Assembly: GCA_036271555.1 (NCBI GenBank)
Contig: DATBAK010000076.1
Span: 1-49,972 of the forward strand
Length of the DNA: 49,972 bases
Source: Acidimicrobiia bacterium
GTDB lineage: Bacteria > Actinomycetota > Acidimicrobiia > IMCC26256 > PALSA-610
Direction of reading: 5' to 3'
The position numbers and the translations under genes are program-made. Within the stretch, counting starts at the first letter, position 1, and the number at the start of each line of letters is the position of its first letter. The notes under the pieces were generated by a model. That model made no database searches and was not told the origin of the DNA. It saw only the letters and a program-made list of their open reading frames with translations. Positions 17,239-39,009 of the stretch are shown here, one piece after another.

Positions 17239-17329
17239 CGGTCGAATAAACGTTGAGGCGTGAACCGGACACAAACCGCGTATGCGGTGTTGGGTTATCC
17301 TGGCTCCGAGTTTGAAGAAGGGATCTATT

Positions 17330-20300
17330 GTGATTAGCCATGCGAGCTTGCTGCGTTCGTTGCTGTTCGGCGCCGTCATCGCCGTGATGGGATGCCAGGG
17401 TGGCGACGGACCCGACCAGGCTCCCGTTACCGATCAGCCCGATGCGGCTCCGACCCAGCTGTTCGCGGGCCCCGAGCGCATCGCTCGCACCGCGAGTGGC
17501 GTCGTGCTCGCGTTCCAGCCCGAGGGCAACGGGTTCACGGGCGGGTATCGGAGTCAGTCGACGAACGTTGCCGACGGCATCGTGTCGTTCACGCCCTACA
17601 CGTACACGGGCGGCCAGCGCACCCCGCACGCCCCGATCACCCTCGAGACCACGCGTATCGCCGCCGACGACACCGTTCTGGCGGGCGCAGCAAATAGCAC
17701 CAGCCTGGACGACGACGGTGGTGTGTCGATCGCGCGTGGTGACATCGTCGAGCACCTTCACAACGACCCCGACGACCTGCACCAGGAGTGGTCGTTCGCG
17801 ACGCCGCCGAGCGATGCCGACGCCGACCTCGTCGTCGAGGTCACGGTGTCTGGCTATCACTACCAGCAGACGACCGCGAGCGGCTTGCACTTCGTCGGCG
17901 CCGATGGCGCGATGATTCGCTACAGCAACGCTGTGTGGGTCGACGCCGCTGGCGGCGAGTGGGCGATCTCGGCCGAATACGAGGACGGCTTGGTTCGCAT
18001 GACGATCCCGAGCAGCGTGCTCGCGGAGTCGACCTTCCCAGCTCTCCTCGACCCGACCGTGTCGGCAGAGGTGATCGCGGACAACCCGGTGACCGGGCCG
18101 GTGGGCGCGAACCAGATCCAGCCGGCGATCGCGTTCGACGGTACGAACTACCTCGCCGTGTGGTCGGACGACCGCGACGGCACCGATAGCGACATCTGGG
18201 GCACTCGAATCAGCCAGACCGGCGCTGTCCTCGACCCCCTCGGGATCAAGATCGCTACGACCACGGGCATCCAGTCGCGTCCGACCGTGGGCTTCAACGG
18301 CACGAACTACATCGTCGCGTACGAAGACTTCCTGACGGGCGGTGGGTCGGCGGCCAACATCGTGGCGGCGAAGGTCAGCAAGACCGGTGTCGTCACGGCA
18401 ATCGGCTCGGTCGCGGCGACCGCAGCGAACGAGCAGCGCCCGGCCATCGCGACGCGCTCGAACGGGACGGCACTCCTGACCTGGAATGCCGGCAGCGCGG
18501 CAATGGCCTCGATCTTCAATGGCACGAGCTTCGGGACCGCGTTCCAGATCGCGACGGCTGCCGTCGTCGAGCCGATGGGCGTGGCTGCATCGACCTCGAG
18601 CGATTACCTCGTGACGTACTCGACGAACACGGACCTCGAGGGCCAGCTCGTGACCACCGCAGGTGCGCTGCACGGCTCCGCTTTCGCGGTGTCGGCCGGC
18701 AGCGGCACGCAGTCGCAGTCCAACGCGACCTTCGATGGCACCAACTTCGACGTGGTGTTCGCCAACGCCGGTGGAACATCGACCGGCACGGACGTCTTCG
18801 GCACGCGCGTGTCGACGGCAGGCGCCGTGCTCGACCACCACACCGAAGGGTCGGCATCGGTCGGCGGCCTCGTGATCGCCGAGGTCACGCAGAGCCAGGA
18901 CACGCCCAACATCGAGTGCACGTCCACGACGTGTCTCGTCGTGTGGGAAGACCTTCGCAACGTCAACACGACAAACTACGACGTGTTCGGCCAGCTGATG
19001 ACGACCGGCTTCGCGCTCAGCGGCTCGAACTTCGCGATCTCGACGGCCGCGCAGCCGCAGGAGAACCCTGTGGTGGCCACGTCGCCGTCCGGTTTCTACG
19101 GCATCTGGCGCGATCTCCGCGACGACAACGCGTTCCAGACGTTCGGCGCGACGATCTCGACAGCCGGCGCTGTGGGCACCGCTGGACCGATCGGCACGGG
19201 AAACAACCGCGAGACGCAGCCGACCATGGGCCGCGCCGGCTCCATCTTCGGCATGTTCTGGAGTGACAGCCGCGTATTCAGCAACAACATCGAGCTCGTC
19301 CGCTTCAACGCGAGCAACACGAAGCTCGACGCGACTGCGCTGACCGTATCGAACGCTGCCAACGCGCAGATCTCGCCGTCGGCATCCACCGACTTGGGGT
19401 CGAACTCGCTGGTCGTGTGGTCGGACACGCGCAACAACGTCGACAAGGACATCTTCGCTGCACGCGTTGCGCTGAGCACCGGCACGGTGCTCGATACCGC
19501 AGGCACGCCAATCACGACCGCCAAGGGCGATCAGCTGTCGCCTGCCGTCGCGTCGAGCGGTTCGGTCGCGCTTGCCGTGTGGGCGGATCGGCGCAGCGGG
19601 ACGTCGTTCGATATCTACGGGGCTCTCATCAACAGCTCGGGCACGGTGAGCGTTGCCGACATCGTGATCTCGGCCGCGGCCGGCGATCAGACCTCACCGT
19701 CCGTGACGTTCGACCCCACGGCGAGTCAGTTCATCGTGGTCTGGCAGGACAAGCGCCAGGTGCCGGTGAACCACATCTTCGGAGCTCGCGTGTCGACGGC
19801 CGGGGTCGTCCTCGACACGTCCGGTATCCAGATCACGAGCGCTGGGGTCGGTCAATTCACCCCGGCAGTGACGTCGCTCACCGGCGAGTCGTTTGTCGTG
19901 TGGTCGGATCGTCGCAATACCGGCAAGAGCGACATCTTCGGCTCGCGACTCGTCGGCGGCTCGAGCTCGTTGACGGTCTCCGATCCGAACGGCATCCAGC
20001 TGAGCTCCGTGGTGACCCAGCAGACGACGCCGGCTCTCAGCGGAAACGGCACCGGGATCTTGGTCGTGTGGGCTGATAACCGCGCCGGAAACAGCGACGT
20101 GTTCGGTCAGCAGGTTAACTCGAACGGAACGCCGTCCGGCACCGAGTTCGTCGTCACGAACTCGACGGCTGACGAACTGTCGCCGACGGTGCTCGCGCTC
20201 GGCGGCACGAGCCCTGGCTTCCGCGTGGCGTACGCGGTCCAGCGACTCGACACGGCTCGCGTCGCGACGCGCGTCATCACGGCATCGTCGACGAACGGCA

Positions 20301-20683
20301 CGACGTGCACCGGTAGCACGCAATGCGCCACGGGCTTCTGCGTCGATGGCGTGTGCTGCGACCAGGCATGCGGTGGCAACCACAAGAGCGCCGGTGCCGC
20401 GGGCACCGGGGTTGCGGGTGACTGCCACGGCTGCGCGGCGAAGTTCACCAACCAGGCGAACGGCACGTGCGCTGCGATCCCGTCGACGACGATCTGCCGC
20501 GACTACGTCAGCAGCTTCTGCGACAACCGCGAGTACTGCGACGGCACGAACACGGTGTGCCCCGGTGACACGGGACGCAACGCGGGCAAGGTGTGCGCGA
20601 AGTCGACGAACTTCCCGCCGGGCAGCGGCAACGGGACATGCCCGGCCAGCGACGCGACGGGCGCGCCGCACGCCTGTCGCTGA
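17330..20683 (+). CDS. very large repeat lipoprotein (probable beta-propeller) with Cys-rich C-terminus
   Basis: The product is about 1117 residues. Start GTG at 17330 is chosen because a strong purine-rich ribosome site (GAAGAAGGG) sits just upstream, and it gives a clear signal with a VMGC lipobox at about residue 22. After a distinct N-terminal region (about 40-260), a repeat of about 50 residues recurs roughly fourteen times, with the core W-[SA]-D-x-R ... D-[IV]-[FWY]-G (for example AVWADRRSGTSFDIYG, VVWSDTRNNVDKDIFA). Fourteen blades would suit two seven-bladed propellers. The last 130 residues contain 16 cysteines (CVDGVCCDQACGG). I see no enzymatic motif; it is likely a surface adhesin or binding protein. 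Confidence 0.8.
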   Translation: MISHASLLRSLLFGAVIAVMGCQGGDGPDQAPVTDQPDAAPTQLFAGPERIARTASGVVLAFQPEGNGFTGGYRSQSTNVADGIVSFTPYTYTGGQRTPHAPITLETTRIAADDTVLAGAANSTSLDDDGGVSIARGDIVEHLHNDPDDLHQEWSFATPPSDADADLVVEVTVSGYHYQQTTASGLHFVGADGAMIRYSNAVWVDAAGGEWAISAEYEDGLVRMTIPSSVLAESTFPALLDPTVSAEVIADNPVTGPVGANQIQPAIAFDGTNYLAVWSDDRDGTDSDIWGTRISQTGAVLDPLGIKIATTTGIQSRPTVGFNGTNYIVAYEDFLTGGGSAANIVAAKVSKTGVVTAIGSVAATAANEQRPAIATRSNGTALLTWNAGSAAMASIFNGTSFGTAFQIATAAVVEPMGVAASTSSDYLVTYSTNTDLEGQLVTTAGALHGSAFAVSAGSGTQSQSNATFDGTNFDVVFANAGGTSTGTDVFGTRVSTAGAVLDHHTEGSASVGGLVIAEVTQSQDTPNIECTSTTCLVVWEDLRNVNTTNYDVFGQLMTTGFALSGSNFAISTAAQPQENPVVATSPSGFYGIWRDLRDDNAFQTFGATISTAGAVGTAGPIGTGNNRETQPTMGRAGSIFGMFWSDSRVFSNNIELVRFNASNTKLDATALTVSNAANAQISPSASTDLGSNSLVVWSDTRNNVDKDIFAARVALSTGTVLDTAGTPITTAKGDQLSPAVASSGSVALAVWADRRSGTSFDIYGALINSSGTVSVADIVISAAAGDQTSPSVTFDPTASQFIVVWQDKRQVPVNHIFGARVSTAGVVLDTSGIQITSAGVGQFTPAVTSLTGESFVVWSDRRNTGKSDIFGSRLVGGSSSLTVSDPNGIQLSSVVTQQTTPALSGNGTGILVVWADNRAGNSDVFGQQVNSNGTPSGTEFVVTNSTADELSPTVLALGGTSPGFRVAYAVQRLDTARVATRVITASSTNGTTCTGSTQCATGFCVDGVCCDQACGGNHKSAGAAGTGVAGDCHGCAAKFTNQANGTCAAIPSTTICRDYVSSFCDNREYCDGTNTVCPGDTGRNAGKVCAKSTNFPPGSGNGTCPASDATGAPHACR

Positions 20684-23756: not shown

Positions 23757-25079
23757 GTGGGACGACGCTCGATACGCCGAACTGACGGCAGCCTGCGCTC
23801 CATCGCGATCCTCGTCGTGTCCCGTGGCTTCGTCGCCGGGGCAGGCTTCCTCGCAAGCGCGCTGTGGGCGCACTACTTCTCCAAGGACTCGTACGGCCGC
23901 TATCAGATCTTGGTCGCCGTCGCGTCGGTCGTGGCGAGCTTCTGTCTGACCGGGCTCGACGACGCGACGTTGATTTCGGCCGCGAAGAAAAAGGACGGCA
24001 ACCTGTGGCCGATCATCAAGCTGCGCCTGATCGCGAGCACGATCGGCGCGGTCGCGATCGCGGTGTGGGCCATCGTTCGCTACTGGTATCCCGACCCGAT
24101 CCTCGCCGAGGCGATGCTGGTGTCGGCTGCGCTGTTCATTCCGGCACAGCTCGCGTCGATCTGGCAGTCGTTCACGAACGGGAAGGGCAAGTTCCGCGCG
24201 CTCACGATCGGCCAGGTCGCGCTCTCGTCGGGGAACCTCGTCGCGGTCGCGACATTCGTCGCCGCCGGCGCGACCTCGCACTCGATGCTTCCGTGGGTCG
24301 TGCTGGGTGGTCAGGGCGCCACTGCCACGATCGGCATCTTGCTCCAGTTCTGGCTGCGCAACATCAAGGAGACCGACGACCGCGACCCCGCAATCATCCG
24401 CTACGGCCACCACGTCACGGTCGCGTCCCTGATCGGATGGGTGTTCAGCGCCGACCGCTTGATCGTCGGCGAGGTCATGACACCCGCCGACGTCGCGGTC
24501 CTGTCCGTCGCGATCGTGCTGCCGGCGCAGGTCAAGGTGTTCTTCAACGCGTTCGAGCAGGTGTTCCTGCCTGGGGTCACGGCCGCAGCGTCGGTCGCGG
24601 ACGCGTGGGTCTACATCAAGCCGCGGATGTTCCGGCTCGGCGCCGCATACATCACGCTTGGGCTGATCGGGTTCTTCCTGCTGCCGATCTTGATCCCTCT
24701 GTTCTTCTCGCAGCGCTACATCGACGCGGTCCCATACGCAAAGTGGCTGTGGCTTTCGACATGTATGGCATCGCCGTTCGTATTCCTCGCGTCGATCCTC
24801 AACGCGCAACAGGACCGGCGATTCCTGTACACGCGCCGGCTATCGAGCCAGCTCATCCTGCTCGCGATGTTCTTCATCCTGATCCCGCAGTTCGGGCTGC
24901 TCGGCGCGATCGTGGCGCGCATCATCAACCACGCCATCCTGATCGTGTTCAACACCGCGTACTTCGCTCACGTGATCCGCGCACGGCCGCCGAGCACGCC
25001 GCCGTCGAACGTCACGCCGCCGGAGACGCCGTCGACACCGTCGACACCGACGGATCCGCCGGCTGCAGATCCGCCTTGA
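23757..25079 (+). CDS. Wzx-type polysaccharide flippase
   Basis: The 440-residue integral membrane protein belongs to the MOP/polysaccharide transporter superfamily that flips lipid-linked repeat units across the inner membrane. It begins RSIAILVVSRGFVAGAGFLASALWA, then GRYQILVAVASVVASFCLTGLD, the typical first helices, and has numerous hydrophobic segments with short polar loops such as QSFTNGKGKFRALTIGQ. The C-terminus is a polar Pro/Thr-rich tail (RARPPSTPPSN ... PADPP). The start is GTG at 23757. It partners with the polymerase, OPX and kinase genes. Its 3' 68 bases overlap the 3' end of the opposite-strand sulfotransferase-like gene. Confidence 0.88.
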   Translation: MGRRSIRRTDGSLRSIAILVVSRGFVAGAGFLASALWAHYFSKDSYGRYQILVAVASVVASFCLTGLDDATLISAAKKKDGNLWPIIKLRLIASTIGAVAIAVWAIVRYWYPDPILAEAMLVSAALFIPAQLASIWQSFTNGKGKFRALTIGQVALSSGNLVAVATFVAAGATSHSMLPWVVLGGQGATATIGILLQFWLRNIKETDDRDPAIIRYGHHVTVASLIGWVFSADRLIVGEVMTPADVAVLSVAIVLPAQVKVFFNAFEQVFLPGVTAAASVADAWVYIKPRMFRLGAAYITLGLIGFFLLPILIPLFFSQRYIDAVPYAKWLWLSTCMASPFVFLASILNAQQDRRFLYTRRLSSQLILLAMFFILIPQFGLLGAIVARIINHAILIVFNTAYFAHVIRARPPSTPPSNVTPPETPSTPSTPTDPPAADPP

Positions 25080-25956: not shown

Positions 25957-27309
25957 ATGAATCGGTCGCTGCGCTCTAGCTGCTTCAAAGCCCTTCTCGG
26001 ACTCCTCGGGTTCGTAGGCGCGACCGTGATGGCGGTCGGAAGTGCTCACGCGCAGAGCGCACCGATGATCGACCCAGAGGATGCCGTAGCCCCCGTCGCG
26101 ATCGTCGAGGGTGCCGGCGTCAAGGTGGGCGAAGGCACAGTCCTGCACCCGCAGATCGGCGTCGAGGGCGGCATGGTGTCGAACGTGTTCTTCACGAACA
26201 CGAACCCGACGGCAGCTGCTTTCATGCGCGTCCTCGGCGAGGTAGGAGCTGGATCGCTATCGGCGAAGCGCCTCGCGACGACGGAGCACGACGCAGACCA
26301 CACGCAGGGCGAGAACGACTACGGTCAGTTCGAGTATCGTGCGGACCTCCGCGCGTCCTACGACTATTACCTTTCAGACAACGATCGCGTCACCGCACAG
26401 GATGGCCTCGGCCTCGGTGCGTTGTTTCGAGGCATCGTCCACCCAGGTCAGCCTCTACAGTTCCTCGCGTACGACAACTACAGCCGGTTGATCCGTCCGA
26501 CGAACTTCGAGTCGAACTCGAACACCAACCGGGACATCAACGACATCAAGCTCCAGGTGATGTATGCGCCGTCGGGTCGCAGCCTGGCGGGCATCATCCA
26601 CTACGAGAGCATCGTCGACGCGTTCGAGCAGGACACTCAGAAGTTCGCCGATCGGTTCCAGAACCTCATCGGGTTCACGCTGCGCTATCAATGGCTTCCG
26701 CAGACGCGGGTCTACGCCGATGTTAGCCAGGGCGTCTACACTGGCATCTCGTCGAGCGTGAAGGTCACGTCCTATCCGCTGATGGGACTGGTCGGGGTCC
26801 AGACCTTGCTGTCGCCGCTGACCTCGATCGTCGCGCGTGCGGGCTATCAAAACGGATTCTACGCGTCCGGCCCGAGCTACTCGTCGGCGCTGGCCGCGCT
26901 CGAGTTTGGCTGGCGTTATGCGCCGCAGGGTCACTTTTCGTTCCTCTACAACTACCTACACAACGACTCGATCAACGCGAACTACTATCGCGACCACCAG
27001 TTTTTCGCGACGCTCGAACACGCCCTCGCGCCATTCGATGCCTTCATCCAAGCTGGCGTGATCTTTCGCGAGTACAACGGCGTGATCGTGAATTTCGACA
27101 TGCCGATGTACGGCACCGGCACTCGCGATGACTTCCTCGCGCTAGGCGCCGCGGAGTTTCGATACAACTTCAAGGATTGGTTGGCAGCCTCGCTGGCCTA
27201 CCACCTCACGATCGACAACACGAACTTCCGCTACACGGTCGACGGTGTGATGGAAGACCCCAGTTACGTCCGTCACGAAGTCCTGTTGGGCATTCGCGCG
27301 GCGTATTGA
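25957..27309 (+). CDS. outer-membrane beta-barrel of the exopolysaccharide export locus
   Basis: The 450-residue protein has a signal peptide (FKALLGLLGFVGATVMAVGSAHAQS, cut near residue 33). Then come many alternating aromatic strands of about 10-12 residues typical of outer-membrane barrels, such as YRADLRASYDYYLSDNDRV, FTLRYQWLPQTRVYADVSQGVY and FSFLYNYLHNDSINANYY. It ends in a terminal aromatic (LGIRAAY). In Myxococcus, separate barrels (the Wzp proteins) serve as exit pores for OPX proteins without a membrane helix. The gene sits two genes upstream of the OPX gene and directly before the kinase, which fits that role. It is inference, not shown here. Confidence 0.75.
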   Translation: MNRSLRSSCFKALLGLLGFVGATVMAVGSAHAQSAPMIDPEDAVAPVAIVEGAGVKVGEGTVLHPQIGVEGGMVSNVFFTNTNPTAAAFMRVLGEVGAGSLSAKRLATTEHDADHTQGENDYGQFEYRADLRASYDYYLSDNDRVTAQDGLGLGALFRGIVHPGQPLQFLAYDNYSRLIRPTNFESNSNTNRDINDIKLQVMYAPSGRSLAGIIHYESIVDAFEQDTQKFADRFQNLIGFTLRYQWLPQTRVYADVSQGVYTGISSSVKVTSYPLMGLVGVQTLLSPLTSIVARAGYQNGFYASGPSYSSALAALEFGWRYAPQGHFSFLYNYLHNDSINANYYRDHQFFATLEHALAPFDAFIQAGVIFREYNGVIVNFDMPMYGTGTRDDFLALGAAEFRYNFKDWLAASLAYHLTIDNTNFRYTVDGVMEDPSYVRHEVLLGIRAAY

Positions 27310-27387
27310 CGCTGATTGGTGCTCGGGCGATGAACTCTTCCAGCCGAAACAGCCACTAACCAGGCTCTACGAGCGCGGAGAGTCACG

Positions 27388-29571
27388 TTGGACGAGCAGG
27401 AGCAGGCTCAAGCAGGAGCGGCTGAAGAGCCGCTCTTCAACTTCGATCTGAAGCGTTATCTCGACGCGCTTCGACGCTATGGACTTGCGGTGCTCGCACT
27501 CGTTGCGGTCGTAGCGACGGGTGCGGTCGTCTATACGAGTCGCCTCCCGAAGCAGTTCGAAGCGAAGGCCTCGGTCCAGATCGAGCCGCGCCTTCCCGAC
27601 CTTCTCGGTCAGGGCGCCGAGCTCCTCGCGATGGGCGCCGGCGGCGCCGACTACTACCGTCAGCAGAAGCAGGTGCTGTCGAGCTACACGGTCACCCGCC
27701 AGACGGTCGAGCAGAACCAGCTCCAGTTGAAGCTCCTCAACGACGCGCAGCGCGCGACCCTTCAGCCGGACGAGCAGCTCGACGTCGCGACCGAGAAGCT
27801 GCAGTCGGCGATCACGATCAAGTACCCCGATCAGGATCGCATCATGTACGTGTACGTTCGCAACGAGGACCCGCAATTCGCGGCGCAGCTCGCGAACTGG
27901 CAGGTCTCGACGTACATCGACTACACGAAGAATCTTCTCAACTCGAGCTCGAAGACAGCATCGGACGTGCTGTCCAAGGAGTTCGAGACCGAGGAGAACA
28001 ATCTGTCGACCGCCGAGAAGAAGATCTACCAGTTCGAGAAGGACAACGACCTCCTCGCGGTGTCGCTCGAGAACCAGCAGAGCCTGGTGTCGGGCAACAT
28101 CACGCTGTTCACCCAGAAGCAAGACGAGGCTCGCGCACATCGAATCGAGATCGACGCCAAGCTCGCCCGCATGAAGGACGTCGAGGCGCACTCGCCCGAC
28201 CTCGTCGACTCGCCGATCCTGCTGATGGGCGAAACGGTTGGTTCGTTCGATTCGCTGCGGGCGCAGTACTACACGGAGCGCAACACCTTCCAGCAGCTCG
28301 AGAAGGAAGTCGGTCCGAAGCACATCGATTTCCAGAAACAGAAGGCCAAGGTGGATGACCTGTTCGAGGCTCTCCAGTCCGAAGCCAAGCGCATCATCGG
28401 GGGCGTCGAAGAGGCGCATGAAGCCGCGGTATCGACGGAGAAGGCGCTCAACGACGAGGTCGAGCACTATCGCAAGGAAGCGTTCTCCCTCGGCCCGAAG
28501 ATCATCGCGTACAACGAGTTGCTCCGCGACAAGAAGAGCATCGAGGATCGCTACATGATTCTCCGCAACCGGTTGTCGACGAGCGAGATGACCGAGCGCA
28601 TGAACACGAGCAGCGACAGCTCGTACGCCAAGAAGCTCGACCCGGCACTTCCCCCTACAGCGCCGGTCGCACCCGATGCACGCGTCAATGCGATGCTCGC
28701 CGGTGGAATCGCGCTCGTCATCGGGCTCGGGCTGCTGTTCCTCGTCGTGTTCCTCGATCGCTCGATCAAGTCGACCAACGACGCGCAACAGGCAAGCGGC
28801 GCGCCGGTGCTCGGCATCATTCCGATGCTGTCTGCGAACGACCTGTCGAGCGACGACGACCGCGCGCGCGACCTGTACGTCAGCGAGCACCCGACGTCGT
28901 CGGTGGCCGAGTGCTGCCGGTCGCTGCGCACGAACGTGCTGTTCTCGAGCGCCGACCGGAAGCTCAAGACGATCGTCGTCTCGAGCGCGAATCCGCGCGA
29001 GGGCAAGACCACGAACGTCATCTACCTCGGCACGACAATGGCCCAGAGCGGCAAGCGCGTGCTCTTGGTCGACACCGACATGCGGCGGCCGCGTCTGCAC
29101 GACTCGATGAAGGTGTCGCGTACCGAGGGTCTGTCGAATCTCATCCTCGGTGACCACCGGTACGACGAGGTGATCAAGCCGACGGAGATCGAGAACCTGT
29201 TCGTACTTCCGTGCGGACCGACGCCGCCGAACCCGGCCGAGTTGCTGCTTACCAAACGGTTCCAGACGGTCCTCGCCGAGCTCGAGAGCAGGTTCGACAT
29301 GATCGTGCTCGACTCGCCGCCGCTGCAGCCGGTGACCGATGCCGTCGTGCTAGCGAAGCAGGCCGACGGCGTTATCTTCGTCGTGCGCGCCGGCAAGACG
29401 CAACGCGAAGAGATCAAGCGCTCGACGCGTCAGCTGCGCAACGTCGGCGGCACGATCATCGGCGTCGTGCTCAACGAGTTCGACGCTCGTGGCCGCGACA
29501 CCTACTACTACAACTACTACGGCTACCGCGAACCGGCCGAGAAGCCCGGCAAGCCGGACAAGGCCGCATAG
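27388..29571 (+). CDS. Wzc-type polysaccharide co-polymerase/tyrosine autokinase
   Basis: The 727-residue protein combines an N-terminal Wzz domain with a cytoplasmic BY-kinase. Membrane segments are at residues about 31-50 and 431-455, with a long periplasmic coiled-coil region between (NNLSTAEKKIYQFEKDNDLL). The kinase has Walker A in SSANPREGKTTNV near residue 533, Walker A' in LLVDTDMRRPRLH and Walker B in MIVLDSPPL near residue 638. A Tyr cluster DTYYYNYYGY near the C-terminus is the autophosphorylation tail. It regulates chain length and export. The start is TTG, preceded by GGAGAG. It follows the barrel gene after 78 bases. Confidence 0.93.
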   Translation: MDEQEQAQAGAAEEPLFNFDLKRYLDALRRYGLAVLALVAVVATGAVVYTSRLPKQFEAKASVQIEPRLPDLLGQGAELLAMGAGGADYYRQQKQVLSSYTVTRQTVEQNQLQLKLLNDAQRATLQPDEQLDVATEKLQSAITIKYPDQDRIMYVYVRNEDPQFAAQLANWQVSTYIDYTKNLLNSSSKTASDVLSKEFETEENNLSTAEKKIYQFEKDNDLLAVSLENQQSLVSGNITLFTQKQDEARAHRIEIDAKLARMKDVEAHSPDLVDSPILLMGETVGSFDSLRAQYYTERNTFQQLEKEVGPKHIDFQKQKAKVDDLFEALQSEAKRIIGGVEEAHEAAVSTEKALNDEVEHYRKEAFSLGPKIIAYNELLRDKKSIEDRYMILRNRLSTSEMTERMNTSSDSSYAKKLDPALPPTAPVAPDARVNAMLAGGIALVIGLGLLFLVVFLDRSIKSTNDAQQASGAPVLGIIPMLSANDLSSDDDRARDLYVSEHPTSSVAECCRSLRTNVLFSSADRKLKTIVVSSANPREGKTTNVIYLGTTMAQSGKRVLLVDTDMRRPRLHDSMKVSRTEGLSNLILGDHRYDEVIKPTEIENLFVLPCGPTPPNPAELLLTKRFQTVLAELESRFDMIVLDSPPLQPVTDAVVLAKQADGVIFVVRAGKTQREEIKRSTRQLRNVGGTIIGVVLNEFDARGRDTYYYNYYGYREPAEKPGKPDKAA

Positions 29572-29577
29572 TCGGTC

Positions 29578-29599
29578 GCGCTCCTCGTACGAGGAGCGC
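29578..29599. terminator. perfect 22-base palindrome between convergent genes
   Basis: The arms are GCGCTCCTC and GAGGAGCGC around a self-complementary GTAC centre. It lies 6 bases after the kinase stop and 33 bases before the end of the opposite-strand gene. It would form a stem on both strands and may end both transcripts. No U-run follows, so it is not a classical intrinsic terminator; a protein-binding site is another possibility. Confidence 0.5.
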
Positions 29600-29631
29600 T
29601 GCCAAGCTCCAGGCAGACGAACGCGCCGTCT

Positions 29632-30147
29632 TCAGTTGAACGGCGACGCGTAGCCGGGCGGCTCGATGATCGGCCCGAACGGGTTGCCGAGCGTCGGATC
29701 GTCAGGAAACGTTGGCGACGTGAAGCCGTTGACGGACTCGCCGTACAGCTCCGGCTCTCCCACGCACGCGTCCGCTTCTGCACGCGCGCGATGCACGGCG
29801 TGTGCTGCGTTCTGCATGTCTTCGAACAACGCCCCGTTGGCGCCACCGTTGGGGCCGCTCACGAGCTCGACCTCGTGACGCGAGGAATCGAAGATGTTCG
29901 CCTGTGCCTTGAGCTCGACCATGCGATCGTTCACGCACGTCAGCTTGATGATGTCGCGCTGCTTGCGCGAGATCTCCTGGAGGTGCTTGACGTGTCGGAC
30001 GTCCTGCTCGACCTCCGAAGCCAGTGCAGCGATGCGCCCTTGGGCGTCGCCGTGCGGCGCCGATTGCGCGAGCGCAGCTCCAGCTAGCGCGGCTCCCCCG
30101 ATGCCGAGGGCAATGGCGGCGAGCCATCGCTTTTGCAGGAATTTCAC
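29632..30147 (-). CDS. secreted protein of unknown function between kinase and OPX genes
   Basis: The 171-residue protein has a signal peptide (MKFLQKRWLAAIALGIGGAALAGAALAQS), then a charged stretch with likely coiled-coil character (EVEQDVRHVKHLQEISRKQRDIIKLTCVNDRM, residues about 45-80) and a second helical segment containing FEDMQNAAHAVHRARAEADACVGE. Only two cysteines occur, so they may form a disulfide. The tail is rich in Pro, Gly and Phe and ends GYASPFN. I do not recognise a family. Start is GTG at 30147, preceded by a good GAGGAGAAG ribosome site. It is opposite in direction to both export neighbours and lies in the periplasm or outside. Confidence 0.65.
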   Translation of the reverse strand: MKFLQKRWLAAIALGIGGAALAGAALAQSAPHGDAQGRIAALASEVEQDVRHVKHLQEISRKQRDIIKLTCVNDRMVELKAQANIFDSSRHEVELVSGPNGGANGALFEDMQNAAHAVHRARAEADACVGEPELYGESVNGFTSPTFPDDPTLGNPFGPIIEPPGYASPFN

Positions 30148-30284
30148 AGGCTTCTCCTCGACCTAAAGCAGAGCGTACAAAGGTCCAAAACGCGTGTCAA
30201 TCGACAGGGTTGGATGTCCAGCTTCTGCTACATGTTCATTGAACGCTAGGGTCGTGCCCGGCAACATAGCTCGCGTTCCGCCCC
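30148..30284. promoter_or_regulatory. divergent region upstream of the OPX gene with a GTTCA-T-TGAAC palindrome
   Basis: These 137 bases separate the secreted-protein gene from the OPX gene. A perfect 11-base palindrome GTTCATTGAAC lies at 30234-30244, about 41 bases before the OPX ATG. The same half-sites, with a 7-base spacer, occur before the barrel gene at 25821-25837. No convincing sigma-70 promoter is visible. Confidence 0.3.
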
Positions 30285-30899
30285 ATGAAAGCGCTCGCCC
30301 GGTTTCTCGTCGTGTTCGGAGTGGTTGCGAGCCTTGGCCAGTTCGCCACGGGGTGCGCGGATAACCCACCCGCGACCTATCCGACCATCGCGCCATTCGA
30401 CGAAACCCAGATTCCCCTCGGCCCTGCGGACAAGATCGAGCTGGTCATCTACTACGGATCCCACGAGATCAAGGCCGACTACGTGATCGATCCCGCAGGG
30501 GACATCGAGGTCCAGTTCATCGGGCGCGTGCCTGTCCAGGGCAAGACGGCTCACACCATCCAAGAAGACGTGAAGCAGCGTCTGGCGGACGGGTATCTGA
30601 TCGACCCGATCGTCAACATCACGGTCGCCGAGATCAACTCGCAGAAGCTGTCGGTGTTCGGTCAGGTCGCGCGCAGCGGCTCGATCAAGTTCGCACCTGG
30701 GATGACGATCGTCGACGCGATCGCCGACAGCGGTGGGTTCTCCCCGCTCGCACGCAAGAACATGGTCAAGGTGACGCGCATGCTCGACGGTAAGCCGGCG
30801 ATCTACAAGATCCCGGTCGAGAGCATCGCCGAGGGGACACGTCCCAACTTCCCGGTGATGCCCGGCGATCAGGTCTTCGTCCCGGAACGCGCCTGGTAG
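30285..30899 (+). CDS. short OPX (Wza-like) polysaccharide export lipoprotein
   Basis: The 204-residue protein begins with a lipoprotein signal whose lipobox is ATGC (Cys24). Residues about 42-118 form a Poly_export domain (GPADKIELVIYYGSHEIKADYVI ... DPIVNITVAEINSQKLSVFGQV), and about 122-170 an SLBB unit (SGSIKFAPGMTIVDAIADSGGF). The C-terminus ends VMPGDQVFVPERAW with no outer-membrane amphipathic helix, unlike Wza (about 379 residues, with several SLBB-type domains). It lies upstream of the polymerase and near the kinase and barrel genes. It probably forms the periplasmic channel and needs a separate barrel to cross the outer membrane. Confidence 0.9.
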   Translation: MKALARFLVVFGVVASLGQFATGCADNPPATYPTIAPFDETQIPLGPADKIELVIYYGSHEIKADYVIDPAGDIEVQFIGRVPVQGKTAHTIQEDVKQRLADGYLIDPIVNITVAEINSQKLSVFGQVARSGSIKFAPGMTIVDAIADSGGFSPLARKNMVKVTRMLDGKPAIYKIPVESIAEGTRPNFPVMPGDQVFVPERAW

Positions 30900-30908
30900 G
30901 CGGCGGCG

Positions 30909-33257
30909 ATGCGGCTTCGAGACAAAGTCTCGATCGGCGTCGGCGTCGTCGCGCTGACGTGGTGCGTGCTCGCGCTCGGAAGCGCGCTGCGCTGGATCGC
31001 CGCGATCGATGCGTTGCTGGTCGGGCTGGCTCTCGTCCCGCTCGTGACATCGCGACGAGGCCTCGGCCGTTCGCCTCTGATCATCACGATCCTGCTCGCG
31101 CTCGTGTTGACGCTACTCCAGCTCGTACCGTGGCCTGCAGGTTGGCTCGATGCCCTGAATCCGATCGGGGACGGGCTCCGCAACGACGGCGCGAGCCTGG
31201 CGGGAGTGTCGCCGTGGGATGCCATCACGCTCGACGTTCCCGGGACGCTGCGCGCGATCGCTTACTTCGTCACGCTGCTCGGGGTCGCAGTCATCGCGCT
31301 TCGATTCGCCCACTCCGAGCGCGGGCGACTCGCATGTCTCAGCGCCGTCGCCGGGATCTGCTTGGTCACCGTGGTCGTGGTGGCGATCCACACGGTCTTC
31401 GACGCGTCGACGCTGTACGGGCTGTACACGCCCGAGCAGGCATCACCACCGGTGCTCGGCCCACTCTTGAATGCGAACCACCTCGGTGGCTTGTGCGCGT
31501 TGGGGTGCGCGGTCTCGACCGGATTGCTTCTCTATCCCAAGCAGTCGCGCGCCGCGCGCATCGTGTGGGCGGTGACGATCCTGGGCACGCTCGTCGTCGT
31601 GCTGGCCACCCTGTCTCGAGGTGCGCTCCTGGCGGCGCTCGCCGGCATCGGCGTCACGCTCGGGACCTATGCGGCGCAGCGCCTCGCGCGCCCCGTCGAC
31701 CGACGGGCTCGCTCTGCGCGCCGGCGGTTCATGATGACCTCGCTGCCGATTGGAGCGGTCGCGCTCTGCATGATGACGGTGATCGTGTTCACGAGCACGG
31801 GCACGGCTCATCAGCTGGAGGACACGTCGCTCCAGGAGATCCACGACCCGCGCAGCAAGTACGAGGCATGGCGGTCCGCGACCACCCTGATCGAGGAGGC
31901 ACCGTGGGCTGGCGTCGGACGTGGCGCCTTCGAGCCTGCCTTCACGCGCGTACACAAGGCGAGCTCGTTCCTGACGTTCTCGCACGTCGAGAACGAGTAC
32001 ATGCAGGCCGTGATCGACTGGGGCATCCCCGGCGCGATCGCGCTCGCACTCGCGTTCGGCTGGATCGGCGTCGTCGCGCTGCGAAGATGGCGAGATGGAC
32101 CACTCGCTGCCGCTGGACTCGGTGGTCTCGCAACGGTGCTCGTGCAGAGCAACGTCGACTTCGGTGTGGAGCTACTCGGCCTCGCCGTGCCGGTCACGAT
32201 CGTCGCAGCGACGCTGACGTACACCTACGTTCGCCCGCTGCGCTCGAAACTCGTGGCGCCGGTCGCCGTCCTCCGGCTTGCTCTGATCGGGCTGCTCGGG
32301 ATCGTCGCGTACACGATGTTCTCGCCGATGACGAGCACGGTCGAAGAGGATCACGATCTTCTCGACGAGCATCCGTCGGACGATGTCGTTCGCGAGGAGC
32401 TCGCGCGCCATCCGCTCGACTACTATGGCTATGCGATCGACGCGAAGTTCGAGCTCGAGGAGCGCGAGCCCGACGTGATCCCGCTCCTCAACCATTCGCT
32501 CGAGCTCCACCCCAACCACACCGGCCTGCACCGGTTCGCAGGCCGCATCCTGCTCGCGCTCGATCACGTCGATCAGGCGGCGCTCGAGTACTCGTCCGCG
32601 CTCGAAGGCATCACCGACCCGCGGAACATCATCTACGAGATCGACCACAGTTTCCCAGCAAACAAGGCTGCGGAGGCAATCCCGACCGACTACGACAGCC
32701 TCGATCTGATCGTCACCGCGCTCACCAAGGACGGGCATCGAGACATCGCCCTCCAGTGGATCCGCCGCGTTGTCGAGCAACGGCCGCGCGACCTGACGGC
32801 CATCGACATGTTGTACATGCTCGCCGCCGATGCGGGCGACGACACGCTCGCCGAGCGCGCGGTACGGAATCGGATCGCTGTGATCTGGAGCCCGCACGCA
32901 GCACTTCAGCTCGCGCAGATCCTGCTCCGGCGTCACGCCGACAGCGAGGTCCTGACGCTCCTCGCGAACGTTCAAGACTGGCACGGGCGGATCGAGGACC
33001 AGGGTGAAGCCTGGCTAGCCCTCTGCGACGCCAAGCTAGCGCTGCACGACGTCGACGGCGCGACCAAGTGCCTTCACCGCCTCGATATCGAGGGCTTGCT
33101 CGTCGGCGAGCGCGAGGAGATCAAGCGCCGTCTCGACGAGATCGAACGCGAGCGTAAGCAGCAGGATCTTCTCGAGCACTACCAGACGGGGACTCCCGAC
33201 GTCGTATTGCCCGGCCAACACCTTCCGAAGACCAAGCCTCCACCGAGCACGCCGTGA
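30909..33257 (+). CDS. O-antigen ligase/Wzy-type polymerase fused to a C-terminal repeat domain
   Basis: The 782-residue membrane protein has many hydrophobic segments (residues about 8-480) and the Wzy_C-type signature near SKYEAWRSATTLIEEAPWAGVGRGAFEPAF, with the HVENEYMQAVIDWGIPG element typical of O-antigen ligase/polymerase proteins. The last 290 residues are soluble, acidic and helical, with a pattern resembling TPR helices (HSLELHPNHTGLHRFAGRILLALDHVDQAALEY). It would join repeat units at the periplasmic face; a TPR tail may bind partners. ATG at 30909 follows the OPX stop by 9 bases. Its TGA overlaps the next GTG. Confidence 0.85.
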   Translation: MRLRDKVSIGVGVVALTWCVLALGSALRWIAAIDALLVGLALVPLVTSRRGLGRSPLIITILLALVLTLLQLVPWPAGWLDALNPIGDGLRNDGASLAGVSPWDAITLDVPGTLRAIAYFVTLLGVAVIALRFAHSERGRLACLSAVAGICLVTVVVVAIHTVFDASTLYGLYTPEQASPPVLGPLLNANHLGGLCALGCAVSTGLLLYPKQSRAARIVWAVTILGTLVVVLATLSRGALLAALAGIGVTLGTYAAQRLARPVDRRARSARRRFMMTSLPIGAVALCMMTVIVFTSTGTAHQLEDTSLQEIHDPRSKYEAWRSATTLIEEAPWAGVGRGAFEPAFTRVHKASSFLTFSHVENEYMQAVIDWGIPGAIALALAFGWIGVVALRRWRDGPLAAAGLGGLATVLVQSNVDFGVELLGLAVPVTIVAATLTYTYVRPLRSKLVAPVAVLRLALIGLLGIVAYTMFSPMTSTVEEDHDLLDEHPSDDVVREELARHPLDYYGYAIDAKFELEEREPDVIPLLNHSLELHPNHTGLHRFAGRILLALDHVDQAALEYSSALEGITDPRNIIYEIDHSFPANKAAEAIPTDYDSLDLIVTALTKDGHRDIALQWIRRVVEQRPRDLTAIDMLYMLAADAGDDTLAERAVRNRIAVIWSPHAALQLAQILLRRHADSEVLTLLANVQDWHGRIEDQGEAWLALCDAKLALHDVDGATKCLHRLDIEGLLVGEREEIKRRLDEIERERKQQDLLEHYQTGTPDVVLPGQHLPKTKPPPSTP

Positions 33258-34423
33258 ACATCCTGTACCTGTCGCTGTCGTACATCCCGTCGCGCCGGGC
33301 CTCGAGCGTTCAGGTGATGCGGATGTGCGAAGCTTTCGCTGCGGTCGGCCACTCCGTGACGCTCGTCGGCAAGCGCCCCGAAGCCGACGCGACGCTCGCG
33401 CCGGACCCCTTCGCGTTCTACGGAGTGCGTCGGACATTCGAGCTCGATCTCGTCGCGCGCCCCCCCCGACGTGGCGGCGGCCTGGTGTACGCCGTCGGCG
33501 TCGTGCGCCACGTACTCGCCGCGCGGCGCGACGTCGACCTCGTGTACTCGCGCGACCTGCTGGGCGGTTGGATCGCGACGGAGCTTGGCCTGCCGACGGC
33601 GTACGAGGCACACGGCGTGTTCGATCGCGAGTGGCAACGCGGGCTGTGGCGTCGGATGGTGAACGCTCCGAGCTTTCGCGGGCTCGTGCCGATCTCCAAT
33701 GCAATGATCGGCGAGCTCGAACGCGTGGACCTGTTGCCGCGCGCCCGCCCGATCGTCGTCGCGCACAGCCCCGCGAGCCGCCCGGCGGCGTGCGGAGCGC
33801 GCGCAGCATGCGCGACACCGCCGAGGATCGCGTATGTCGGGAGCATCTATCCGGGCCGCGGGATCGAGCTCGTGCTTCGTGTCGCGAAACGGATGCCCGG
33901 TTGCACGTTCCACATCATCGGCGGCTCGGACAGCGAGGTCGAGCGGTGGCGCACCGGCGAGGTCCCCACCAACGTGACGTTTCGTGGGTTCTGTGCACCG
34001 GCGACTCTGCCCGCGCTGTATCGCGACATGGACGTGCTGCTGATGCCGTACCCACATGCTGGGATCCACGGCGCCACGCGTCGTCTCGACACGGCGAAGT
34101 ACTGCTCGCCGATGAAGATGTTCGAGTACATGGCGGCTGGCGTCCCGATCGTGGCGTCGGATCTGCCCGTGCTGCAGGAGGTCCTCGTCGACGGGCGAAA
34201 TGCCTTGATCGCCGCGGCCAATGACGATGTCGCCTGGGCTCGCGCGATCGATCGCCTCCTCCACGACCGCGCGCTCCGCGTCGCGCTCGCCGAGACCGCG
34301 TTCGCGGACCTGGCCGAGTTCACGCCCGAGGCGCGCGTTTCACGGATCTTGGCGGGCCTCGCGCCAACAGGGTCGAATCGGCCAGGCTCACGAACAGCGC
34401 CAGGAAGATCCACAGCAGCGTGA
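33254..34423 (+). CDS. GT4-type glycosyltransferase
   Basis: The 389-residue GT-B protein starts MNILYLSLSYIPSRRASSVQVMRMCEAFAAVGH, an acceptor half typical of GT4. It has AYEAHGVFDREW, a donor half with AYVGSIYPGRGIELVLRVAKRM, and KMFEYMAAGVPIVASDLP, where the glutamate matches the conserved GT4 motif. GTG at 33254 overlaps the upstream stop. The C-terminal tail (TGSNRPGSRTAPGRSTAA) falls inside the 104-base overlap with the convergent ligase gene and looks like a non-conserved extension. It may build the repeat unit handled by the polymerase before it. Confidence 0.85.
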   Translation: MNILYLSLSYIPSRRASSVQVMRMCEAFAAVGHSVTLVGKRPEADATLAPDPFAFYGVRRTFELDLVARPPRRGGGLVYAVGVVRHVLAARRDVDLVYSRDLLGGWIATELGLPTAYEAHGVFDREWQRGLWRRMVNAPSFRGLVPISNAMIGELERVDLLPRARPIVVAHSPASRPAACGARAACATPPRIAYVGSIYPGRGIELVLRVAKRMPGCTFHIIGGSDSEVERWRTGEVPTNVTFRGFCAPATLPALYRDMDVLLMPYPHAGIHGATRRLDTAKYCSPMKMFEYMAAGVPIVASDLPVLQEVLVDGRNALIAAANDDVAWARAIDRLLHDRALRVALAETAFADLAEFTPEARVSRILAGLAPTGSNRPGSRTAPGRSTAA

Positions 34424-35540
34424 CGCGCATGCCCTGGTGACTGAGCCCGTACGCGACGACGGGCCCGAGCATGATCATCTGTCTGAGCTTCGCGATCCGT
34501 ACCAGCTGGAAGAAGAACCACAGGAACACCGCGGAGCCGACGATTCCGTAACAGAAGAAGATCGTTCCTGCTGACGAGTGGAGCTCGTGCTCTCCGATCT
34601 TGCCGGTGTCCGCGTACCGGTAGTACGCGCCCTCCCCCGCCCCGAGCACCCAGTGCTCGGGGTGTTGTGCGATGCGATCGTAGCCACGCTCCTCGGCAAA
34701 GTCGTAGGACTTGTCGGTGTTGATCCGCTCGAGCGTACGGTTCACGGTGTCGCCTTGCGGGTCGATCGCGAGGAGCGCGACCGCAGCGATCACCGACGCG
34801 AAGATGACCGTGCGTATCCGGGTGATCAGCGAGACGATCAGGATCAGCGCGGTCGCTGCGAGGCCGGCCTTCGACGCAGAGATCAGCGCCAGGTACGAGC
34901 ACGCGACGACGCCGACCGCCGAGTGGAGCGCGGTCAGGCCGGCGCGCCGTTGGCCGAGCACGATGATCGAGGCCGACAGCACGGCGTAGTAGCCGAACTG
35001 GTTCGGGTTGTTGAACATGCCGGTGCTGCGCAGCAGGCTGTGGTGGCCGAACACGAACGACAGCGGCACCTGGATCAACACGGACACGACCGCAGCTCGG
35101 ACCGTGATCTCGATGAATCGCGGGCCGCGGAGCTGGTAGAGCGCCAGCCCCATCACGAACACGAGGGCGTTGTAGATGTAGAACACTGGGCTGAGCAGGA
35201 AGCCGATGCGAAGGTTGATGGAGATCGTGCCCAGCCAGAGCGACCACACGACGGCCGAGATCGTCGTGTAGGCAGCGAACGCGAGAAGCGCGAACACCGC
35301 GCGCCGCTGCGGCTTGCCGAGCCTGCCGCTCCAGCGCTGCAGCACGAACGGCATCAAGACGAGGAGCACCGCGTCGGCCGGCTGGGGCAGGCCGCTGGGC
35401 AAGATGTACATCGGGAACAGGACGATGAATGCTCCCCAGGCGCGCAGCAGCGGATCGCGGAGCAATGTACGCGTCGGCGTCGAATGCACGACGGCCGGGC
35501 GCGGTGGCTTCGCGCGCCGTGTGGCGGGGGCTGCGGTCAC
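34320..35540 (-). CDS. O-antigen ligase/polymerase-family membrane protein (second)
   Basis: The 406-residue multi-pass inner-membrane protein has an initial polar segment, then numerous hydrophobic helices (DAVLLVLMPFVLQRW, AVFALLAFAAYTTISAVVW). It has the NNPNQFGYYAVLSASIIVLG loop, and HPEHWVLGAGEGAYYRYADTG with HSSAGTIFFCYGIVGS near the C-terminus, as in Wzy/WaaL proteins. It differs from the fused polymerase gene in lacking the repeat domain. The GTG at 35540 overlaps the stop of the upstream GT gene. The 3' end overlaps the opposite-strand GT by 104 bases. It is the last gene of a minus-strand sugar operon. Confidence 0.82.
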   Translation of the reverse strand: MTAAPATRRAKPPRPAVVHSTPTRTLLRDPLLRAWGAFIVLFPMYILPSGLPQPADAVLLVLMPFVLQRWSGRLGKPQRRAVFALLAFAAYTTISAVVWSLWLGTISINLRIGFLLSPVFYIYNALVFVMGLALYQLRGPRFIEITVRAAVVSVLIQVPLSFVFGHHSLLRSTGMFNNPNQFGYYAVLSASIIVLGQRRAGLTALHSAVGVVACSYLALISASKAGLAATALILIVSLITRIRTVIFASVIAAVALLAIDPQGDTVNRTLERINTDKSYDFAEERGYDRIAQHPEHWVLGAGEGAYYRYADTGKIGEHELHSSAGTIFFCYGIVGSAVFLWFFFQLVRIAKLRQMIMLGPVVAYGLSHQGMRVTLLWIFLALFVSLADSTLLARGPPRSVKRAPRA

Positions 35541-36683: not shown

Positions 36684-37322
36684 TCACCACGCAGCGACTC
36701 GCGCTGCGAGATCCGATAGGTCGGGTGCTCGGCGCACCCCGAGCTGCATCCAGCGGTCGTGCAACGCCGGCGTGTCGCGTGCGAGGAACTCCACGCCCGC
36801 ATCGACCGCGGCTTCGTAGTCGGTATAGCCGTCGCCGATGAACAGCACTTGATCGCGCGACCAACTATGGCGCTGCATCAGGCCACGCAGCACGGCCGGC
36901 TTCTCGGACGGTGAGCCGTGGACCTCGCGGAACCGCGGCGTCAATCCTCGCCGCTCGACGATCATCGTCAGCTCGTCCTGCGGCGTCCCCGATGCGACGA
37001 ACAGCGGCACGCGCAGCGCCGTGAGCGCACCCTCGGCGCCGGTCACGAACGGCGCGGCCAGGACCTTGGCCAGAGCGAGCTCGGAGAAGCGACGTCCGAG
37101 CGCGGCGCTGGCGTCATCGCCCAAGCGCTCGCCAAGCACGTTCTCCGAGATCCACGCGAACTTCTTGAACCGGGAGATGCCGAGGTTCGCGAGGTGATGC
37201 TCGCGAACCTTCGCAGTCACCGCGGGACCGTGATGCGCATAGAGGTCGATGAACGCGTCGGTCTTGACGTCCGCCGACTCGAGGATGACCCCATCGAAAT
37301 CGAATACGATTGCTTCAAGCAC
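36684..37322 (-). CDS. HAD-superfamily hydrolase (probable sugar phosphatase)
   Basis: The 212-residue protein has HAD motif I in VFDFDGVILESADVKTDAF, motif II SGTPQDE, the Lys in SPSEKPAVL, and motif IV in VLFIGDGYTDYEAA. The cap domain lies between motifs I and II, as in the phosphoglycolate phosphatase/beta-phosphoglucomutase group. It probably removes a phosphate from a sugar intermediate. The start is GTG at 37322, overlapping the upstream epimerase stop by 8 bases. Neighbouring epimerase and cytidylyltransferase genes suggest it works in a sugar-nucleotide pathway. Confidence 0.85.
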   Translation of the reverse strand: MLEAIVFDFDGVILESADVKTDAFIDLYAHHGPAVTAKVREHHLANLGISRFKKFAWISENVLGERLGDDASAALGRRFSELALAKVLAAPFVTGAEGALTALRVPLFVASGTPQDELTMIVERRGLTPRFREVHGSPSEKPAVLRGLMQRHSWSRDQVLFIGDGYTDYEAAVDAGVEFLARDTPALHDRWMQLGVRRAPDLSDLAARVAAW

Positions 37323-38196
37323 GGTCGAGCTCCGCGTGGATCTGCTCCACGAGCGTGAGAAGTCCTTGGCCCATATCGACGTAGTGTGTGGTCACGAGCT
37401 TGCGCCCGGCGCGTGGCGTGTACGCATAGGGGGTCACTGCGTAGTGACCGCTGCCCGGCCCTTCGACACGCCGGTACTGAACCTCGAGCTTCCGCCCCAA
37501 GAGCTCTTGGAACATCATGAACAGGTCGGCCGCGCGCGTCGGGCTCGAGCCGCTGAGCATGACGTGTTGACCGACGAATGCATCGTCGAGCACGTCGGCG
37601 GACATCCGCGCCGCGTCCTCGACATGGATGTACTCGCGAACGTCGTCGGGCGCACCGGCATACGAGATCCTGCCCTCCGTGATCGCGGTGCGCAGCAGCC
37701 GGTACACGCCGTTGGTCGCGTCGGCGCGTGGTCCGTACAGCGAGCCGTAGCGGATCACGGTGTAGCGGATGTCGAAGGCGCGACCGTACTCCTCGATGTA
37801 CGACTCGCAGGCCTGTTTGGAACAGCGATAGAAGCCACCCTCGCGGCTGTACACGTAAGCGGTCGATGCGAACAGGAATCGCTGGATTCCGTGCTGCCGC
37901 ATCGCTTCGAGCACGTGGATCGTGCCGACGATGTTGGTCTGCACGGTGTCCAGCGGACGCGTGCGTGCGGCGTTGAGATCTGCGAACCCACCGAGGTGGT
38001 ACACGGCGTCGTGACCCGCGACGGCGGACGCGACCGCGGCGGAGTCACGTAGATCGCCGGCGATGGCTACAGCACCACGCGGCAGCTGGTGAGGCACCTC
38101 GCGATCGAGCACCGTCACGACGTGACCGCGCTCGACGAGCGTGTCGACGAGGTGACTACCGAGGAAGCCGGCGCCGCCGGTGACGAGGATCTTCAT
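37315..38196 (-). CDS. NAD(P)-dependent nucleotide-sugar epimerase/dehydratase
   Basis: The 293-residue extended short-chain dehydrogenase has TGGAGFLGSHLVDTL at the N-terminus as its Rossmann motif, DLRDSAAV, and a catalytic pair Tyr123 and Lys127 in FYRCSKQACESY with the serine just before (FASTAYVY). The substrate cannot be told from sequence. ATG at 38196 gives the family start MKILVTGGAG; the longer frame upstream is spurious. It sits 19 bases from the cytidylyltransferase stop and overlaps the HAD gene. Confidence 0.9.
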   Translation of the reverse strand: MKILVTGGAGFLGSHLVDTLVERGHVVTVLDREVPHQLPRGAVAIAGDLRDSAAVASAVAGHDAVYHLGGFADLNAARTRPLDTVQTNIVGTIHVLEAMRQHGIQRFLFASTAYVYSREGGFYRCSKQACESYIEEYGRAFDIRYTVIRYGSLYGPRADATNGVYRLLRTAITEGRISYAGAPDDVREYIHVEDAARMSADVLDDAFVGQHVMLSGSSPTRAADLFMMFQELLGRKLEVQYRRVEGPGSGHYAVTPYAYTPRAGRKLVTTHYVDMGQGLLTLVEQIHAELDRA

Positions 38197-38215
38197 GCGG
38201 CCCGCATCTCGCGCG

Positions 38216-38950
38216 TCAGTGATTCTCTTCGTTGATCTTCGCGACGATGTCCGGGTGGCCAACCCACTGCTCGGAGTAGAAAACATCGATCAGGCCGTGG
38301 ATGTCGCGGCCAGTCACCCACGGCCGAACGATTGGAAGGACGCTCTTGCCCATCCACCACCACGGGTTTGGACCGTCCTGGGTCTGAACGGTGCGCTTGC
38401 GGAAGGCCCACACACCCTGATCGTAGTAGTAGGCTTTCGGGTAGCTCTGACGCTCTGTGGATACCTTGCGCGGACCACCGAACGTCTCGATCAGGCCGTC
38501 GTTGTTGATCTGGAGGGCGCGGTACGGATGATCATCTGCAGCCTCCCAGACCGTCATTACCGAGTCGAGCTCGCGGCGCTCGTCGAGCAACCCGAGAGCT
38601 CGATCGATGATCTCGCCATCGATGTACACGGTATTGCCGAGCAGCAAGACGATGTTCTCGAGGTTGTCGACGCGCGCGTCGACGTACTCGACGGCGTGCT
38701 TGATCACGATGCCGTGATTGACGCTGTCTCCGCCGAGCTCGTCCGGGCGCGGGATGATCTTCGCGCCGGCATCGCGCGAGGCCGACGCGATCGCGTCGCC
38801 GTCGGTCGACACCCAGACCTCGGCGATGCGCTTCGCCGCCTGGGCGGCTTTGATGGGGTACTGCACCATCGGCTGCCCGCATAGGGGCAGCACGTTCTTG
38901 TCGATGATGGACTTCGAACCTGCGCGGGCGGTGACGATCGCTACATTCAT
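38216..38950 (-). CDS. cytidylyltransferase (CMP-sugar/NeuA-like family)
   Basis: The 244-residue protein opens with VAIVTARAGSKSIIDKNVLPL, the CTP-binding signature of acylneuraminate-type cytidylyltransferases, and LPLCGQPMVQYPIKAA. VSTDGDAIASA follows and fits the fold. A C-terminal stretch (DQGVWAFRKRTVQ) is less conserved. It would activate a sugar or polyol phosphate with CTP. No NeuB-type synthase is present, so a sialic acid is not supported. The ATG at 38950 lies 59 bases from the preceding GT stop. With the epimerase and HAD hydrolase it forms a candidate pathway for an unidentified CMP/CDP-linked sugar. Confidence 0.85.
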   Translation of the reverse strand: MNVAIVTARAGSKSIIDKNVLPLCGQPMVQYPIKAAQAAKRIAEVWVSTDGDAIASASRDAGAKIIPRPDELGGDSVNHGIVIKHAVEYVDARVDNLENIVLLLGNTVYIDGEIIDRALGLLDERRELDSVMTVWEAADDHPYRALQINNDGLIETFGGPRKVSTERQSYPKAYYYDQGVWAFRKRTVQTQDGPNPWWWMGKSVLPIVRPWVTGRDIHGLIDVFYSEQWVGHPDIVAKINEENH

Positions 38951-39009
38951 GACTGAACGCGGGCGGTTATAGCGTAGTTAGTGTCCGGTCGGGCCATCCG
39001 CGTTCGCGG

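Follow-up and report, generated by a model that had tools for sequence, protein, structure and literature searches.

The composite arrangement of a short OPX protein and a separate outer-membrane beta-barrel was published in 2022 for Myxococcus, with the pair EpsY/EpsX (WzaX/WzpX) (PMC9601211; Saidi et al. PMC9603273). OPX proteins of this kind, referred to as D1D2-OPX or class 3, have at most 280 amino acids, contain only Poly_export and SLBB, lack a C-terminal helix and bear a lipoprotein-type signal, while a barrel is encoded within five genes and genes for a co-polymerase and a polymerase lie alongside (PMC9601211, PMC9603273). The lipoprotein (type II) signal peptide is common in this class but not universal. 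The partner in the composite translocon is, in the published description, an 18-stranded outer-membrane barrel. In M. xanthus EpsX and EpsY were found to interact in pulldown and to stabilise each other, and loss of EpsX strongly cuts EPS production. VpsN/VpsM of Vibrio cholerae have also been named as a short OPX/barrel pair (PMC9601211). According to survey data, short OPX proteins typically carry a helix or else have a coupled barrel, and the arrangement is widespread, since one survey counted 453 short OPX proteins with a coupled barrel and without the helix. Some short OPX proteins do have a C-terminal helix, and these are believed to function without a barrel, while a syntenic barrel is missing for 7 of 48 myxobacterial short OPX genes. 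An 18-stranded barrel found in capsule clusters is also known in Wzi.

Here we analyse a stretch of DNA of 49,972 nucleotides (the window), which is a whole contig (1–49972) of a 4.68-Mb MAG with 104 contigs and a reported contamination of 4.45%. Very probably, its export locus encodes an ordinary example of the two-part exit gate known since 2022. We consider it likely that a short OPX ring and a separate barrel of a Wzx/Wzy-type pathway form the exit route here. The DNA almost certainly derives from a Gram-negative organism, which may be a myxobacterium, and not from an actinobacterium.

Results

Short OPX protein

The gene at 30285–30899 (+) encodes a short (D1D2, class 3) OPX protein of 204 aa, which is within the length limit of 280 aa. 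In a Pfam scan its residues 41–114 correspond to Poly_export (PF02563, E 6e-16, 58.8 bits against a cut-off of 28) and residues 120–199 to a single SLBB unit (SLBB_2, E 1e-8), while Wza_C and GfcC domains were absent from the protein. Thus Poly_export is followed only by SLBB, as in other class 3 proteins. The N-terminus MKALARFLVVFGVVASLGQFATGC looks by eye like a lipoprotein-type signal, with a putative lipobox FATGC that appears to follow the usual pattern. This signal is the only hydrophobic stretch: past residue 40 the best 19-residue mean is 0.85, and no membrane-spanning 19-residue window was found after the signal peptide. The alignment to the SLBB_2 model runs to the end of the model, reached at residue 199 of the 204, so that the C-terminal end ...PGDQVFVPERAW extends five residues past the SLBB unit. 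Since the stop codon occupies 30897–30899 and the downstream gene starts at 30909, there is no room for a hidden helix spanning the outer membrane. The protein therefore lacks the C-terminal helix of the class 1 Wza proteins and does not belong to them. An earlier note on this DNA had described it as an OPX protein of only 204 residues with one SLBB unit and no membrane helix; Pfam, the stop position and hydrophobicity all agree with this, and the hidden C-terminal helix considered there as a counter-argument was looked for and is impossible.

Among solved structures (phmmer against PDB) the protein is closest to 9n9a, a short OPX chain of 186 aa (E 5e-28, residues 23–202), followed by Wza (2j58, E 1e-13), which is aligned over D1-D2 only. 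The best NCBIfam match along the protein is the XrtA/PEP-CTERM exopolysaccharide export protein TIGR03027 with 88.7 bits against a cut-off of 180 bits. The EpsY equivalog model NF041843 gave about 58 bits (58.3), below its cut-off of 320 bits.

Gene cluster

The barrel and the OPX protein are encoded in a cluster of Wzx/Wzy type. It includes, in this order, a flippase-like gene, the barrel gene, a co-polymerase gene directly downstream of it, a small reverse-strand gene, the OPX gene and a gene for a Wzy_C protein. The Wzx-like flippase candidate (23757–25079, +; 440 aa) was assigned by eye from nine hydrophobic segments and has no Pfam, NCBIfam or PDB match. The polysaccharide co-polymerase (27388–29571, +; 727 aa) with its tyrosine autokinase domain is of the Wzc/EpsV type: it matches Wzz (E 3.5e-7) and AAA_31 (E 3e-13) in Pfam, TIGR01007 above the cut-off and Wzc structures, has transmembrane segments near residues 25–43 and 437–455, and ends with a Tyr-rich tail RDTYYYNYYGYREP. 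Immediately after the OPX gene follows a Wzy/O-antigen-ligase-type membrane protein of 782 aa (30909–33257, +), in which Wzy_C (E 3e-18) and nine hydrophobic segments are combined with a C-terminal TPR region, and then a GT4-type glycosyltransferase (33254–34423, +; Glyco_trans_1_4, E 8e-22). The surrounding genes encode further glycosyltransferases together with a sulfotransferase, an acyltransferase and a protein resembling polysaccharide deacetylases, and sugar genes of the PglF/PglE/PglD kind are also present. An initiating phosphoglycosyl transferase was not found among the open reading frames scanned. A multi-pass membrane protein at 34320–35540 (−), with eight hydrophobic segments and no match in Pfam, resembles a further polymerase or ligase of Wzy type. 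The region 37315–43785 (−) encodes a UDP-sugar 4,6-dehydratase, a DegT aminotransferase, a PglD-like acetyltransferase and a CMP-sugar synthetase-like protein, and this set suggests an amino-sugar in the polymer, for instance bacillosamine or a nonulosonate.

Between the co-polymerase and OPX genes lies, on the opposite strand, a gene for a secreted protein of 171 aa (29632–30147, −), recognised as an open reading frame with a signal peptide. This protein includes the stretch KQRDIIKLTCVNDRMVELKAQ, appears helix-rich by eye and could be placed in none of the families of Pfam, NCBIfam and PHROGs; no relative was found in plasmids or viral contigs. Both reading frames named in the earlier note, that of the barrel and that of the OPX protein, were recovered at its coordinates. 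The barrel and OPX genes are two genes apart within a polysaccharide cluster, that is, inside the span of five genes typical of the composite translocon. The placement of both in one export block, put forward in the earlier note, holds even though the co-polymerase gene and the small opposite-strand gene intervene, and no competing process to which the barrel might belong is encoded nearby, its flanks being the flippase-like gene and the co-polymerase gene. Length, domains, lack of helix, nearby barrel, co-polymerase and polymerase all fit the correspondence with the barrel-requiring OPX class of Myxococcus drawn in the same note.

Barrel candidate

The gene at 25957–27309 (+) encodes a candidate outer-membrane beta-barrel of 450 aa, a proposed exit pore with a role like that of Wzp/EpsX. 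It has a signal peptide (...SAHA|QSAP) and a C-terminal beta-signal, an amphipathic strand with an aromatic end (...EVLLGIRAAY) and a terminal tyrosine as in outer-membrane barrels. The match to Pfam OMP_b-brl reached 28.7 bits, which is exactly the cut-off. No further Pfam match was obtained at E up to 1, BBP2_2 (PF10082) included (HMMER), and PDB and the plasmid collection contained no sequence relatives. A rough calibrated counter registered 17 amphipathic strand-like segments; applied to E. coli barrels it found 19 segments in LamB (true number 18), 16 in the C-terminal part of PgaA (16), 15 in FadL (14), 13 in OmpF (16) and 11 in Tsx (12). Visual inspection suggests 18 segments, with the N-terminal part ambiguous, and a number of about 18 strands is tentative. 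In the 15 C-terminal segments the putative periplasmic turns have 2–6 residues and the outside loops are mostly longer (4–17). AlphaFold2 run without an alignment gave no usable barrel model (pLDDT 31 for the barrel and 45 for the OPX protein).

When the mature barrel was compared by hhalign with a profile of 12 OPX-paired barrels of BBP2_2 type, a score of 41.6 (P 8e-5) was obtained, while the maximum was 28.9 in 400 shuffles and 24.0 among seven unrelated outer-membrane proteins of E. coli. With profiles of the alpha-only and gamma-only subsets the barrel was not separated from unrelated porins, and a relationship to the OPX-partnered BBP2_2 barrels is therefore only suggestive. One could also suppose that the barrel represents an undescribed family of OPX partners, distinct from both myxobacterial Wzp and BBP2_2, and that the 171-aa secreted protein is a third part of the exit complex, but we regard this as unlikely.

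The same pairing was searched for elsewhere, as the earlier note had proposed, starting from the OPX protein of the window in the plasmid collection and taking partner barrels by annotation. A short OPX gene lies within a few genes of an annotated outer membrane beta-barrel protein in Azospirillum oryzae, Azospirillum TSH100 and Thalassobaculum, as well as in Sphingomonas taxi, Enterobacter, E. coli plasmid and Pseudoalteromonas loci; a co-polymerase, where seen, accompanies them. The barrel-paired OPX proteins of these plasmid loci have 160–207 aa and share their end point with the OPX protein of the window (alignment A2), so that the pairing recurs with co-terminal proteins in several loci. 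Two barrels of these loci were scanned, and both belong to BBP2_2 (PF10082). Several of the barrel-paired short OPX proteins end with ER-x-F (W instead of F in the window, 30885–30896), and this ER-x-aromatic ending might be a motif for docking to the barrel. For the S. meliloti OPX no annotated barrel was present within 6 kb, and the neighbourhood of the barrel relative in S. meliloti is unrelated. Scans of genome and viral contigs for relatives of the barrel, the OPX protein and the 171-aa protein gave one remote OPX fragment from Calditrichota and nothing else usable, and in alignments A1 and A2 no stretch was conserved enough to serve as a search probe.

The barrel may alternatively be a surface-attachment protein like Wzi or a bystander outer-membrane protein, with the OPX protein using a barrel encoded elsewhere. 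The reverse-strand gene between the co-polymerase and OPX genes makes it probable that barrel and OPX, two genes apart, belong to different transcription units, Wzi likewise occurs in capsule clusters, and some myxobacterial short OPX genes (7 of 48) do have no syntenic barrel. However, OMP_b-brl is the only family matched, and up to E 1 there was no hit to Wzi, AlgE, PgaA or BcsC. The protein shows no obvious helical bundle at its N-terminus, and a barrel gene beside the co-polymerase, as in two of the plasmid loci (A. oryzae and S. taxi), is commonly seen in OPX/barrel loci. We therefore give this possibility a low probability and prefer the barrel as the exit pore.

Origin of the contig

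The contig is almost certainly misbinned, being DNA of a diderm (Gram-negative) bacterium placed in an actinobacterial MAG. This follows from several observations. The MAG has seven matches to WhiB, an actinobacterial marker whose probe matched only Corynebacterium among the controls, while BamA is absent from the MAG and from 12 relatives. No OPX protein was found in the 60 relatives of the MAG that were searched, and the barrel of the window was likewise absent from all 60. DTD and CysN of the window are second copies on long branches, the native ones being located elsewhere in the MAG. The DTD of the window is 49–59% identical to those of the relatives, which share 62–76% among themselves; for CysN the values are 65–69% and 69–85%, which taken alone is weak evidence of misbinning. 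Finally, the tetranucleotide correlation of window pieces with the MAG is about 0.60, whereas within the MAG it is about 0.72.

If an actinobacterium truly carried this system, it would need either a diderm-like envelope or a transfer of 50 kb. The presence of the contig in the bin, the similar GC content of window and MAG and one weak TonB-plug match elsewhere in the MAG speak in favour of such a carrier; they are opposed by the lack of BamA and OPX in the sets searched, by the native DTD and CysN with the long-branched copies in the window, by the outlying tetranucleotide usage and by the reported contamination, which leaves this explanation very improbable. The TonB-plug match (27.5 bits) is at 6396–6632 of contig C63, inside an open frame of 1179 codons, and this contig is possibly a second misbinned Gram-negative one.

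As to the actual source of the window, its Cys-rich and thrombospondin-3-like secreted proteins, which gave weak hits to myxobacterial models, point to a myxobacterium, perhaps. A lipoprotein-like secreted protein of 1133 aa (17282–20683, +) combines blade repeats with a Cys-rich tail (CVDGVCC) of a kind associated with myxobacteria.

Discussion

On another reading, the OPX protein would be a shortened relative of Wza whose helix disappeared through a mutation or an error in the assembly, and which has no need of a barrel. This idea might appeal to the helix-bearing, apparently barrel-independent short OPX proteins, but it has practically no chance. At the level of sequence it is refuted by a stop at the natural end of D2, common to other short OPX proteins and chain 9n9a, with no space for a helix before the next start.

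From the gene context and the published precedent we infer that the OPX protein and the barrel may physically form an exit channel. A surface polysaccharide would then be made by the Wzx/Wzy-type pathway, with chain growth at the inner membrane controlled by the co-polymerase. The short, presumably lipid-anchored OPX protein, which cannot cross the outer membrane, would probably assemble a periplasmic ring of its D1 and D2 domains and take up the chain. The barrel would be the outer-membrane pore docked on this ring, completing the path of the polymer across the outer membrane.

The locus is one further example of what seems to hold for most OPX proteins, namely that they are unable to span the outer membrane alone and rely on a separate barrel; how a short OPX ring docks to its barrel is a general question already under test in Myxococcus. 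What is added here is the misbinned contig and the unexplained 171-aa gene. The former is also a practical warning, because an outer-membrane export locus seems actinobacterial solely through a misbinned contig.

Compared with Wza of E. coli (2j58), the OPX protein of the window shares homology in D1-D2 but is devoid of D3 and of the outer-membrane helix. Its best NCBIfam match is to the XrtA/PEP-CTERM type (TIGR03027), yet below the cut-off, and no exosortase genes were noticed in the open reading frames scanned. With the short OPX and BBP2_2 (PF10082) loci of Pseudomonadota the locus has in common the gene set and the OPX end point, and the barrel profile match is suggestive, although the barrel of the window has no PF10082 match by HMMER. 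In contrast to EpsY/EpsX of M. xanthus, the barrel gene of the window adjoins the co-polymerase gene rather than the OPX gene, and the proposed likeness of the barrel to EpsX is one of role and context. In its composition, the locus is nevertheless like EpsY/EpsX: a short, putatively lipoprotein-type OPX protein of D1 and D2, a separate candidate outer-membrane barrel and a Wzc-type co-polymerase are brought together in a cluster of Wzx/Wzy type.
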